A stretch of 64,000 nt of DNA from Polynucleobacter sp. MWH-HuK1 (GCF_018881815.1 NZ_JACVPP010000001.1:983040-1047039); one strand, 5' to 3'; numbered from the stretch's first letter, positions 27,810-33,096 are shown. Notes: a model not told the origin generated them from the sequence alone. Numbers and translations: made by a program.

Positions 27810-30800
27810 ATGCGTAAATATTCCCTTATTTCATTGTTGTTCTGCTGCAGCATTGTATTTTGGGGTAATCAGGCATATGCATCCCTCAATAAGGATGAAG
27901 TAGATCTTGACAGCGTGAAAGCGCCCCCAAGGGATGTGAGGGACATTTTGCGTTTATTTGATACTACTAAACAAGATTCAAAAGACGTAGAAAAAGCAAA
28001 GGCAGTCTTAGTCCTTCCAAAACCAATATCTTCCGATTCTGAAGTATTAAATCACTATTACTACCGTCGTTCTATAGCAGATGAATTGCTTGGCAATACA
28101 AAAGAAGCGGCTGAGAACATGCAAAAAGTGGTGACTGAATACCCAAGTAGGGAGCCTGCATTTGCCGTGGATGAATTAATGTATTACGCAGGCGCCGAAA
28201 GTATGCGAGGAAATAGGATATTCGCCAATAAAATTTTAGAAGATGCACGCTCAAAAGTTACCCCGCAAATTAGAGGGTATTACATTTCGATAGATCGAAA
28301 CGTTACAAATAATTGTGTTTCAACTGGTGATTTTGAGTGCGCAAAAGCAGCAGTGGAAAGATTGCAAAAAAATTATTCGGACATTGTTGGTAGTGCGCGT
28401 AATGTCAAGTATGAGATTCGCCTCAGCTGGGAAATAAGTTATGAGTGGTCTAGGGCCAAGATGTTTATGGCGGAAGGAAAGTTTATTGAAGCGGAGCGTG
28501 GATTTCGAAGAGCGCTTAAGTTAAATGGCGATATCTTGGAGAGCATTAAAGATTCTGGGCGGGACGCCATAGATAATGAAAAACGGGTAGTGCAAGATGC
28601 AACGTCGAGTACAAAGTTTGCCTACATGTTAAGAGTCATTCTGATGAATGATTTGGCGCGCTCATTTTTAGGGCAAAAACGCCTGATAGATGCTGAGTAT
28701 TGGGCGCGTGAAGCCGTAACGTTATCTATTACTAAATTTGGAGTCAATTCCTCTAGAACCAGTTATGCTTTACTGACGTTAACGCGTATTATTTCAGAGC
28801 AAGGTCGTCAGCCTGAGGCGGTTCTTCTGGCTACAGCGGCTCTTAAGGCTGCACAACAATCCACCAATTACCCCGCTTCGCCAGCGATTGCAGATGCAAG
28901 AAAAGTATTGGCTACCTCTTTAGCAGCCGATGGGAAATACACTCAAGCGGATAAAGTATTTGCAGAAATGGTCGATAACCTTAAGAGTGATCCGGAGATG
29001 GCTTCTCGTTATCAGTCTGGAGATTTGGATTGGGCATTGTCTTTGATAAAAACAGGAAAGGCATCTAAAGCTGAAGCAATGACAGCGGACATGCTATCTA
29101 AGGCTGGAGCGAGGATGGAAAAAAGCTCTCCGCGCTTAGCAATGATTCGAGCATTTAATGCCTCAGCTCTTCAGGTATCTGGGCAGGGTTCTAGTGCGTT
29201 GACTGAATTTAAACAGGCTATTCCAATTTTGATTGACCAGGCGCGTAATGATTCAGAGAATGCAACCACAACAATACGTCAAACCCAACGAATGACTTTT
29301 GTGTTGGAGGAATACTTGGCATCACTTGCTCAGCAAGCTAAGGCAGACCCCTCTAGCACTGCTGCTGCCGAAGCCTTTCAAATTGCAGATCTTGCGCGTG
29401 GCAGTGGAGTGCAGCGCGCTTTGACTTCTAGCGCAGCACGGGCAAACATTTCTGATCCGCAGCTAGCCTCATTAGCCAGGCGAGAACAGGATTTGCAGCA
29501 ACGCATTAATACACTCTCTGAGCTTTTAACTGGACTTTTATCTGCACCCTTAGAGCAACAGCTTCCAGCCGTTCAGGCAAGGATTCGGACGGATATTGCC
29601 GGCTTTAAATCACAAAGGGAAGATATTAAAAAAGAGATTGAGCGTAAGTTTCCGGATTATGCTGAGTTGGTTGAGCCTAAGCCTGCATCTGTAGAGCGGA
29701 CTCAAAAAGCTCTTAAGCCTGATGAAGTTTTGATTTCTTGGTATTTTGCCGATAACGTTGGATATGTGTGGGCGATCACCAAAGATAAGCCGGTGCAATT
29801 TGCGCAACTCTCTGTTGGTCGCAATCAAGTGGCAAAAGAAGTGACCCAGTTACGCAAATCGCTAGATCCTGGCGTGGCTACGATTGATGAGATTCCACCA
29901 TTTGACATTGCCTTGGCAAACCAACTGTACCAACAAGTACTAGCACCTGTACAAAGTGCCTTCGTAGGTAAAAAAGTCATGCTTACAGTACCCCATGCTG
30001 AGCTTGGCCAGTTGCCTTTATCGTTGCTAGTAACAAAACCAACTGCTCAACCTCCAAAAGGTGGGGCTACGCCATTTAGTGGCTATAAGACTGTGCCATG
30101 GCTAACGAGGGACATTGCGGTTGCTCAGGTTCCATCTGTGACCTCATTAACTGCCTTGCGTGCTTTACCGGCTGGTAGCCCTAATCGTAAAAACTTTATT
30201 GGTTTTGGTGATCCTTACTTTAGTACCGAGCAAGAAAAAGCTGCACAGAAACAAACTAAGGCTACACAATTGGCAACACGTGGCACTCCACTTCATTTGC
30301 GTAGTGCGCCGAAGACTTCTGGCGTGAGCTCAGCAGAGTTGGCGCTTTTACCCCGCTTGCCCGATACCAGTCTTGAGTTAGAGGAGGTTGGTAAAGCTAT
30401 TGGAGCGGGGGATGGTGATATCTTCTTGCATCAACAAGCCTCGGTGAAGCAGGTGTTGTCAACTGATTTATCTAATCGCAAGGTGGTGATGTTTGCTACT
30501 CATGGTCTGGTTCCCGGTGAATTAAATGGCTTAACCCAACCAGCGCTTGCCTTGTCGTCGCCAGATGTCACTGGTGATAAGGATGATGGCTTGCTCACAA
30601 TGGATAAGGTCATTACTTTAAAGTTGGATGCTGATTGGGTGGTGTTATCAGCCTGCAATACTGCTTCAGGTGAAGGTGCCGGCTCTGAGGCGGTATCTGG
30701 TTTAGGGAGAGCCTTTTTCTTTGCTGGCGCTAAGGCCCTTTTAGTATCCAATTGGCCGGTTGATTCGGTGGCCTCCAGGACGATGATGACCGATTTATTT

Positions 30801-30959
30801 AAAAATCAGCAAAAAGCCCAAGGTACTAGTAAGGCAGAGTTGTTGAGACAGGCCATGCTCAATCAAATTGATCAAGGTGGTATGAAAGAGGGCGGTAATA
30901 TGAGGTACGCCTATGCTCACCCCTTGTTCTGGGCCCCATTTGTAGTGGTTGGGGATTGA
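27810..30959 (+). CDS. Exported TPR-CHAT domain protein (caspase-like HetF-associated with TPRs)
   Basis: 1049 aa; signal peptide MRKYSLISLLFCCSIVFWGNQAYA-S; repeat-rich N-terminal half; C-terminal CHAT motifs LTVPHAELGQLPLSLLV, VVMFATHGLVPGELNGLTQPALALS, WVVLSACNTASGEGAGSEAVSGLGRAFFFAGAKALLVSNWPVDSVAS. Candidate His898/Cys949. Confidence 0.92.
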   Translation: MRKYSLISLLFCCSIVFWGNQAYASLNKDEVDLDSVKAPPRDVRDILRLFDTTKQDSKDVEKAKAVLVLPKPISSDSEVLNHYYYRRSIADELLGNTKEAAENMQKVVTEYPSREPAFAVDELMYYAGAESMRGNRIFANKILEDARSKVTPQIRGYYISIDRNVTNNCVSTGDFECAKAAVERLQKNYSDIVGSARNVKYEIRLSWEISYEWSRAKMFMAEGKFIEAERGFRRALKLNGDILESIKDSGRDAIDNEKRVVQDATSSTKFAYMLRVILMNDLARSFLGQKRLIDAEYWAREAVTLSITKFGVNSSRTSYALLTLTRIISEQGRQPEAVLLATAALKAAQQSTNYPASPAIADARKVLATSLAADGKYTQADKVFAEMVDNLKSDPEMASRYQSGDLDWALSLIKTGKASKAEAMTADMLSKAGARMEKSSPRLAMIRAFNASALQVSGQGSSALTEFKQAIPILIDQARNDSENATTTIRQTQRMTFVLEEYLASLAQQAKADPSSTAAAEAFQIADLARGSGVQRALTSSAARANISDPQLASLARREQDLQQRINTLSELLTGLLSAPLEQQLPAVQARIRTDIAGFKSQREDIKKEIERKFPDYAELVEPKPASVERTQKALKPDEVLISWYFADNVGYVWAITKDKPVQFAQLSVGRNQVAKEVTQLRKSLDPGVATIDEIPPFDIALANQLYQQVLAPVQSAFVGKKVMLTVPHAELGQLPLSLLVTKPTAQPPKGGATPFSGYKTVPWLTRDIAVAQVPSVTSLTALRALPAGSPNRKNFIGFGDPYFSTEQEKAAQKQTKATQLATRGTPLHLRSAPKTSGVSSAELALLPRLPDTSLELEEVGKAIGAGDGDIFLHQQASVKQVLSTDLSNRKVVMFATHGLVPGELNGLTQPALALSSPDVTGDKDDGLLTMDKVITLKLDADWVVLSACNTASGEGAGSEAVSGLGRAFFFAGAKALLVSNWPVDSVASRTMMTDLFKNQQKAQGTSKAELLRQAMLNQIDQGGMKEGGNMRYAYAHPLFWAPFVVVGD

Positions 30960-31003
30960 TTTAAGATTTACCTATTAAGTAACTTTAATTATTGAAAGTT
31001 TTT

Positions 31004-31441
31004 ATGAAATTGACCAAAATTTTAGTTGCATCATGCTTTGTATTCGCTTCTCAGTGGGCTATTAGCGCACCTTTAATTAGTGCTAAAGAGGCAGCATTAC
31101 CGCCAGCTGCTGGGACGTTGGCTACACGCGGTATTTCTCGTGGACCAGCAATCAAATTAGCTTCCCCTGAAGCGGATACTCCGGTAGCTGCACCTTTTGA
31201 CTTCAAGGTAAACTTTGAGCCACGTGGAGATACAAAGATTGACCCAAGCTCAGTGAAGGTGGTGTATATGAAGTCGCCCTTTGTTGATCTAACTCCTCGT
31301 CTTAAAAGTGCAATTTCAGCTAAAGGTATTGATTTTGCAAAGGCGGATGTTCCTCCTGGTACTCACACAATTCGCGTTACCGTGAAAGACTCTGAAGGTC
31401 GCGAGACTAATTCTGTGATGAACCTGGTGGTTAATAAATAA
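31004..31441 (+). CDS. Small secreted protein, uncharacterised, possible beta-sandwich/Ig-like domain (track start 30992 TTG; ATG at 31004 preferred)
   Basis: Signal peptide MKLTKILVASCFVFASQWAISA; C-terminal DVPPGTHTIRVTVKDSEGRETNSVMNLVVNK resembles an Ig-like beta sandwich. Confidence 0.7.
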   Translation: MKLTKILVASCFVFASQWAISAPLISAKEAALPPAAGTLATRGISRGPAIKLASPEADTPVAAPFDFKVNFEPRGDTKIDPSSVKVVYMKSPFVDLTPRLKSAISAKGIDFAKADVPPGTHTIRVTVKDSEGRETNSVMNLVVNK

Positions 31442-32229
31442 TGAATTGTCCATATTGCCTGTCAGAGGTATCTGAAGAGGCTTACGTCTGCAAAACCTGC
31501 AGTCGTGATCTCTATTTATTTAAGCCGATGATGGCAAAGGTTGCTGAGTTAGAGAATAAGCTAGCTGCAGTGGTTAGTACTGAGTTCTATGAGCTCAGAA
31601 TAGCTGAATTAGAGGATCAGTTAGAGGAGCAAAACCAAAAGCTGGAGAGAAGATCTTCACTGCAGTGGCTCGCTGATATTTCTGTATATCTCATTATTCC
31701 TTTGTTGTTGTTGCTCCTAGCGCATTGGTTGATTGCAGTGGTATATGACACCAAAATGATTTATCTGCGCATTATTTCAATTATGTTGCCACTGCCATTT
31801 GCCTATGCTTTATTTAAAAAGCACCCTCATAAAGTGATGCCTTGGTTTGCTGGCGTCATTTTCTTGGCTATTGCATCGGTCATTGGCATGAGTTGGGTAA
31901 CTAGTTTGGTTGATCATTCGCCTATATGGCCGCAAAACTTATTTGAATGGAAAGAGGTTTTGGAATACTCAGCTAGTATTGCATTTAGCTTTTTAACGGG
32001 TATGTTGCTTGGCGGAGTGACTTACGCTGCAAAGCAAAGAGCTCGTAGGGCTGGCTTAATGAGCTCAATGATGAAAGTAGCTGCATTGAACTTTAAAGAT
32101 GGTGGAGCCTCACTTAAAAATGTACATGGCTTAATGAAGTCGTTACAGGAGTATGGTGGCACTATTGTTGCCTTGGGAACTACTGCGGTATCTATTTACA
32201 CCGGCCTAAAGGGAATCATTGGTAGCTAA
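31441..32229 (+). CDS. Zinc-ribbon, coiled-coil, multi-TM protein, uncharacterised
   Basis: 262 aa; MNCPYCLSEVSEEAYVCKTCSRDLY (CxxC...CxxC), coiled-coil segment, then about 4 hydrophobic segments. Start overlaps the previous stop (TAATG). Confidence 0.75.
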   Translation: MNCPYCLSEVSEEAYVCKTCSRDLYLFKPMMAKVAELENKLAAVVSTEFYELRIAELEDQLEEQNQKLERRSSLQWLADISVYLIIPLLLLLLAHWLIAVVYDTKMIYLRIISIMLPLPFAYALFKKHPHKVMPWFAGVIFLAIASVIGMSWVTSLVDHSPIWPQNLFEWKEVLEYSASIAFSFLTGMLLGGVTYAAKQRARRAGLMSSMMKVAALNFKDGGASLKNVHGLMKSLQEYGGTIVALGTTAVSIYTGLKGIIGS

Positions 32230-32962
32230 ATCTCTATTGGTGGCTTTCTGGTGTTTTGTGGCCGCCAGCGCTCACTCTCAAGTATTTGATGTTTCTCATC
32301 AACAAGATCAGCCGACAAGAACTCTTATGCTACCAACGCCCAATGCAAAGGCTTTGGTGCTTTTATTCCCGGGTGGTGGAGGCATGCTACATCTTAAAGA
32401 TGATGGCTCCACTAAGAATCAACACACGTTTGTCCGCTCAGCTAGTCTTTGGTCACAATATCAAATAGACGCAGTATTGGTCGATACCCCTTATGACTTG
32501 GGTGATCTGAGGAGGGGCGATCGTCGCGACCGTGCGGATCATCTTGCTAGGGTAGGTGAAACCGTTCGTTTCTATAAAAATAAAACGCAATTACCAGTCT
32601 GGATTTTTGGACACAGTATGGGTACCTCAACCGCTACCTATTTTGCCAATCAATTGAACGATGAATCTAAGTTATTGGCAGGGATCATTATTGCAGGAAC
32701 AGTGAGAACAGCAGTGCTTAGTAATGAGGTCAGCCTACCTGTTGAGGTAATTCATCATGCTCAGGATGAATGTCTAGGAACCCCAATTTCCGCAGCAAAA
32801 GGCATTATTTCTGGAAGACCCAATCAGTTTGTTTCACAATTAGAAATTATTGAGGGCGGTATAAGCCAGGGTAATGTGTGCGACTCCTTTGCTTATCATG
32901 GGTTTAACCAGACCGAGCCAGAACTTATCAAACGTGCAGCCCAGTTTATCTTGAGTCATTAA
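32219..32962 (+). CDS. Secreted alpha/beta hydrolase
   Basis: 247 aa; signal-like N-terminus, LVLLFPGGGGMLHL, nucleophile elbow IFGHSMGTS, HHAQDECLG, YHGFN. Overlaps previous gene by 11 bp. Confidence 0.8.
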   Translation: MVAKSLLVAFWCFVAASAHSQVFDVSHQQDQPTRTLMLPTPNAKALVLLFPGGGGMLHLKDDGSTKNQHTFVRSASLWSQYQIDAVLVDTPYDLGDLRRGDRRDRADHLARVGETVRFYKNKTQLPVWIFGHSMGTSTATYFANQLNDESKLLAGIIIAGTVRTAVLSNEVSLPVEVIHHAQDECLGTPISAAKGIISGRPNQFVSQLEIIEGGISQGNVCDSFAYHGFNQTEPELIKRAAQFILSH

Positions 32963-33045
32963 ATTTACTACTTGTCAGTATTTACTGATTAATTCGTCGC
33001 CCTAGAAAACTAGTCAACTGCATTGATTCTGAGTCGTTGTACATG

Positions 33046-33078
33046 ATCCACGCACACATTGTGTCCGTGGATTTTTTA
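33046..33078 (+). terminator. Strong terminator-type hairpin closing the CHAT module / preceding comEA
   Basis: ATCCACG-c-ACAC-att-GTGT-c-CGTGGAT followed by TTTTTT. Confidence 0.85.
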
Positions 33079-33096
33079 TTTTCTAGAGGAGAAAAA

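Follow-up and report, generated by a model that had tools for sequence, protein, structure and literature searches.

Gene content and organization of the locus

The locus lies within the window, i.e., the whole 64,000-nucleotide stretch of DNA that was analysed, in a host genome of 2.17 Mb that is of Polynucleobacter type, judging from its closest named relatives. On one strand, hldD is followed by genes encoding a TPR-CHAT protease, SEC (a small secreted protein), ZNR (a membrane protein with a zinc ribbon), and an alpha/beta hydrolase, and then by a hairpin and comEA/cysM (Table 1). The ORF calls bore out the gene order and tight junctions described in the first-pass annotation: the CHAT ORF is separated from SEC by 44 bp, SEC and ZNR share a TAATG, and ZNR overlaps the hydrolase gene by 11 bp. 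The size of the small secreted protein, previously given as 149 aa, is most likely 145 aa; the listed start, a TTG at 30992, would add four residues, and the ATG at 31004 was preferred because it fits the 44-bp gap. The hairpin followed by a T-run, also described previously, was recovered by folding; the consensus terminator scan did not list it, probably because of a mismatch in the stem.

Table 1. Features of the locus, with positions counted from the first letter of the window
Feature	Position	Strand	Remark
TPR-CHAT protease, predicted exported	27810..30959	+	1049 aa; PF12770
CHAT loop (aa 815-837), LATRGxPLxLRSAP	30252..30320	+	TRG at 30276-30284
SEC, secreted 145-aa protein	31004..31441	+	Arm TRGISRGP at 31124-31147
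ZNR, zinc-ribbon membrane protein	31441..32229	+	Predicted cytosolic zinc ribbon, coiled coil, TM helices
Secreted alpha/beta hydrolase	32219..32962	+	Accessory gene, outside the conserved core
Hairpin and T-run, candidate intrinsic terminator before comEA	33045..33079	+	-14.3 kcal/mol

The CHAT protein belongs to the CHAT peptidase family on the basis of its match to PF12770 (E value 1.7e-48; 166 bits, cut-off 24) and a His-Cys dyad (His898, 30501-30503; Cys949, 30654-30656) that was invariant in an alignment of 35 sequences. It comprises a Sec signal (approximately aa 1-25), a TPR superhelix (aa 43-545), and the CHAT domain (aa 702-1049). In the structural model (mean pLDDT 80), the superhelix was accompanied by a C-terminal alpha/beta domain, and the loop at residues 815-837 was predicted to be disordered (pLDDT <50); residues 815-840 are well conserved, with 78% mean pairwise identity. 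A signal-like hydrophobic N-terminal segment was found in nearly all complete CHAT proteins and in most of the Peptidase_C14 partners described below, which supports the predicted export of the protease. The earlier designation as an exported TPR-CHAT protease is supported by the signal peptide, the TPR matches, and the PF12770 match. A PDB sequence search with the CHAT profile returned TPR proteins only, and the top Foldseek match of the model was DdvA of Myxococcus xanthus (8rw5, 4.9e-12), with separase also among the best.

Neither SEC nor ZNR matched a Pfam or NCBIfam family above cut-off, or any PADLOC model confidently. SEC was modelled with AlphaFold2, confidently from approximately residue 60 (mean pLDDT 83), as a predicted beta sandwich of the Ig/PKD/FnIII/CopC-like type. 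N-terminal to the sandwich, and at lower model confidence, lies the arm TRGISRGP (residues 41-48), whose almost invariant form, (T)RG[IL]xRGP, is carried by all but a few of the copies linked to ZNR. The likeness of its RGP motif to the 'RxxGP degron' of APPBP2, a TPR fold match, was taken as a coincidence.

The zinc ribbon of ZNR gave only a weak match to Pfam (DZR_2, 0.014), and a PDB sequence search with the ZNR profile gave none. Its four cysteines (C3, C6, C17, and C20) were invariant in 10 relatives, and the protein further contains a coiled coil and about four TM helices. According to the positive-inside rule, the zinc ribbon is predicted to be cytosolic, with a basic loop (119-138) inside and an acidic loop (150-181), in which D158, E169, E172, and E175 are invariant, on the periplasmic side. 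Identification of ZNR with LmuB or another defence protein was rejected, as the likeness was found only at the level of the zinc ribbon and coiled coil. At one locus (L079, 8435-9227), where both CHAT genes of the genome are intact, ZNR is frameshifted, reflecting either a sequencing error or a true loss.

Distribution of the module across genomes

Searches with SEC yielded 54 loci among GTDB species genomes. Another 14 genomes were added at the level of the order and about ten, Bradyrhizobium-like, at that of the phylum (the genus being assigned from a match to a Bradyrhizobium plasmid), besides two plasmids, from Variovorax and Bradyrhizobium. The SEC and ZNR clusters were present at nearly all of the 54 loci. 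After removal of near-identical duplicates, 61 SEC loci had at least 3.5 kb of sequence on both sides; a CHAT or Peptidase_C14 gene was located within 4.5 kb of SEC in 60 of them (42 and 18 loci, respectively) and ZNR was present in 53, although these loci are related by descent and the counts are not independent trials. This was the co-occurrence check set beforehand, and the earlier link of CHAT with a small secreted and a zinc-ribbon protein was thereby found to be kept across genomes. At the sole locus without a protease, hldD-SEC-ZNR-comEA was otherwise intact and CHAT was missing.

The module was found in Polynucleobacter, Curvibacter, Hylemonella, Limnohabitans, Variovorax, and Bradyrhizobium, i.e., in both beta- and alphaproteobacteria. 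CHAT is divergently oriented in Variovorax and on the Bradyrhizobium plasmid, ZNR is convergent in one family (f50), and the hydrolase and CHAT genes lie downstream of SEC-ZNR at three loci. Gene order and orientation thus vary, and the linkage is therefore not just that of one inherited locus. Some genomes carry second CHAT genes without SEC; apart from such copies, CHAT without any SEC was found in only two MAGs, one of them with 77% completeness. Sequence comparison leaves SEC, ZNR, and one exported clan CD protease as a well-supported conserved unit, and all three are adjacent in the window. Literature searches among open-licence articles returned nothing specific to the combination. The module is a real, conserved, and mostly undescribed envelope protease module, a variant of clan CD protease systems.

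The hydrolase, which the first-pass annotation had counted as a core member of a four-gene module, scored below Pfam cut-offs yet is clearly alpha/beta hydrolase-like. It is absent from most loci, and in three genomes (G026, G030, and G036) it stands alone between hldD and comEA with no CHAT module there, so its tie to this site is as strong as its tie to the module; the four-gene version was rejected.

Exchange, loss, and variability of the protease

At loci lacking CHAT, the neighbouring gene encodes a caspase of the Peptidase_C14 family (PF00656, approximately 1e-31 to 1e-41) with the active-site motifs YAGHG and DACRDNP and a D-A-C signature. Such genes are rare (6 in 16 genomes), and three of the six adjoin SEC. 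On the SEC+ZNR tree, a quick tree of 66 rows with some long branches, the partner type changes at least seven times, six of these changes being forced by well-supported branches. The tree lends good support to a protease class that is interchangeable while SEC-ZNR is kept. CHAT, previously regarded as the defining element, is not one, because Peptidase_C14 replaces it repeatedly. Limnohabitans-like genomes and one further family (f13) additionally carry a second, DUF4384-bearing caspase together with a secreted protein that has an OmpA domain.

CHAT is a pseudogene in two genomes and absent in a third, with the SEC and ZNR ORFs open in all three; at least three losses of CHAT have left SEC-ZNR intact. 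A strong SEC match was found in about 45 of the 151 Polynucleobacter genomes, and in one relative (G004) hldD directly adjoins comEA, representing an empty site. The mean identity among CHAT proteins was 42-51% in the N-terminal (TPR) half versus 84% in the catalytic half, and of the 205 pairs with >88% identity in the catalytic half, 108 had a TPR half below 60%. At L079, the two CHATs in tandem are identical over the last 100 aa, and for the greater part of the N-terminal half their identity is 23-43%. Such divergence is of a recognition-like kind. G505 likewise has two CHAT genes; there, CHAT breaks off after residue 587 at the end of two contigs and another contig starts just before SEC, suggesting that identical C-terminal halves broke the assembly and that the catalytic half underwent gene conversion.

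A shared arginine motif

The TRG within the CHAT loop motif LATRGxPLxLRSAP is kept in beta- and alphaproteobacteria despite the predicted disorder; in Bradyrhizobium-like CHATs, the loop motif reads VTRGGPLKRR. Similar motifs were found shortly after the signal peptide in the OmpA proteins of the caspase variants (PATRGLRNL, PTTRSLRNL, or KTRGMRNL), and TRGL occurs in some second caspases. Of the trials in which the CHAT sequence was shuffled, 0.3% had TRG in the loop and 0.25% had LATRG anywhere, frequencies to be read with the coincidence between SEC, the CHAT loop, and OmpA having been noticed post hoc. In family f50, at two loci with both CHAT and SEC, the CHAT loop contains no TRG and the SEC motif reads ARGGLTRGP. 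A related VRG is present in a CHAT without SEC, and six SEC-like proteins beside caspases, without ZNR, are motif-less.

Orthocaspases are described as cutting after basic residues (PMC6426788). In CHAT, the position two residues ahead of the Cys is not the Asp that such caspases use for basic residues. We infer that R[GAS], with cutting after Arg, is a candidate site that these proteins share, either for cleavage or as a pseudosubstrate; alternatively, the same arginines may dock SEC to the acidic loop of ZNR. The proposal that the small protein is a substrate or inhibitor is plausible, with circumstantial support from the shared motif.

Interpretation of the module

Bacterial caspase-like and CHAT proteases have mostly been studied as cytosolic immune effectors. 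The reading that we favour, to which we give slightly less than an even chance, is that of a regulated clan CD protease located in the envelope, in which SEC-ZNR and an interchangeable protease form a TPR-sensing, Arg-site-cutting switch. The variable TPR superhelix would sense a variable periplasmic or incoming ligand, while the acidic periplasmic loop of ZNR would hold SEC at the inner membrane, where the RG[IL]xRGP arm would be presented to the protease, either as its first substrate or as a pseudosubstrate. Once triggered, the protease would cut between Arg and a small residue in the SEC arm and in its own LATRG loop, as well as in the OmpA linker in caspase variants. Such cutting would turn the protease on and/or alter the state of ZNR, whose zinc ribbon would report to the cytosol. 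Cost or danger may lie with the protease, and SEC-ZNR may act as its restraint or as a relay. Points that count against this reading are the post hoc origin of the motif comparison, the f50 and VRG exceptions, the Asp missing from CHAT, the CHAT genes without SEC, the frameshifted ZNR of L079, and the motif-less SEC-like proteins beside caspases. A bolder version, which we regard as rather doubtful, is an envelope immunity or cell-fate system of Gram-negative bacteria. In it, SEC-ZNR would be a membrane core for the docking of exported executioners of the caspase family that can replace one another; the TPR sensors would be hypervariable, and the system would encode its own Arg-Gly substrates, peptidoglycan-binding OmpA proteins among them. 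If true, eukaryotic caspase adaptors would have a counterpart in the periplasm.

Several other explanations were weighed. SEC might instead be a dedicated tight inhibitor, a securin-like pseudosubstrate that is never cleaved, with cutting taking place elsewhere. The fold relatives of CHAT include separase-securin complexes, SEC-ZNR have outlasted the losses of CHAT, and the second Arg of the arm is followed by Gly-Pro; however, the residue at P1' is small, as in many real cleavage sites, and similar sites occur in the protease itself and in OmpA, and we consider strict inhibition unlikely. Separase-securin is alike in combining a clan CD protease, a helical superhelix, and a possible pseudosubstrate partner. 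It is, however, eukaryotic, securin is a disordered chain whereas SEC has a predicted Ig-like domain, and no sequence kinship with the module was shown. A split, DdvA-like signalling system, with ZNR as the transmembrane relay, periplasmic TPR-CHAT as the sensor or regulator of a cytosolic regulator, and proteolysis secondary or absent, would accord with the top fold match, DdvA being a transmembrane anti-sigma factor, and with the predicted cytosolic zinc site of a membrane protein. This appears quite improbable, as the match is poor over the full length (TM 0.34-0.39), the catalytic His and Cys are invariant, and no anti-sigma or sigma domain, including ECF sigma, was found among the proteins of the window or in the ten flanking genes that were checked; moreover, the replacement of CHAT by Peptidase_C14 enzymes suggests that catalysis matters. 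DdvA also differs in being a single anti-sigma polypeptide, whereas a soluble, exported protease, secreted SEC, and ZNR are separate proteins here.

An abortive system acting in the envelope against phages or competitors, with injected or adsorbed material as the trigger, would fit the patchy presence, the empty site, the plasmid copies, and the contrast between a hypervariable TPR half and a conserved effector half. Against it, the PADLOC matches were weak (BovA, 0.005; LmuB, 0.0014), housekeeping genes, not defence genes, make up the flanks that were examined, and the small protein had no match in phage records, and we judge this account to be no likelier than the DdvA-like one. Mere hitchhiking, i.e., co-location through shared ancestry of one site without a functional link, draws on the hldD-comEA site common to many Polynucleobacter copies, but the set is also present at many different sites and reaches into further families and classes, and its gene order, orientation, and protease class vary. 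This explanation, by far the least probable, is refuted for SEC-ZNR-protease and may hold for the hydrolase. The switch that we favour gains from the fact that the protease has been swapped repeatedly while its partners were kept, which points to a real and undescribed protein-cutting switch in the bacterial envelope. SEC and ZNR, as families without annotation, outlive the exchange of protease class, bear a specific candidate cleavage or docking motif, and provide a genetic handle on exported clan CD proteases in beta- and alphaproteobacteria; with three small genes, the targets of exported bacterial caspases become directly testable.

Comparison with known protease systems

In bacterial gasdermin-protease systems, which are cytosolic, the activator is a caspase-like or CHAT protease; the module here is predicted to be exported, and no gasdermin Pfam match was found among its proteins. 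Craspase (Cas7-11/Csx29) likewise combines a TPR superhelix and CHAT with a dedicated partner or substrate that is cut in a flexible loop (PMC10028731). It differs in being cytosolic, RNA-guided, and dependent on Cas7-11, whereas the present protease has a signal peptide and unrelated partners, and no Cas gene was found among the neighbours (LPS genes, SEC, ZNR, hydrolase, and comEA).

The caspase variants resemble metacaspase/orthocaspase-OmpA operons, in which a caspase lies beside OmpA: such a link was reported for 14 of 217 operons (Asplund-Samuelsson 2012, PMC3501461), and the operon section of that article does not mention SEC, ZNR, the CHAT/C14 exchange, or the Arg motif. Operons of a caspase, a DUF4384 second caspase, an OmpA-domain protein, and a SEC-like protein were observed at 13 loci, the OmpA-domain proteins having a conserved TR[GS][LM] linker, and may represent a related, partly ZNR-independent class. 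The host genome of the window contains two more Peptidase_C14 genes, convergent and with no SEC or ZNR beside them, which lie outside the window at about 1,952.6-1,956.4 kb of the genome (C1; 6645-10447 of locus L182).
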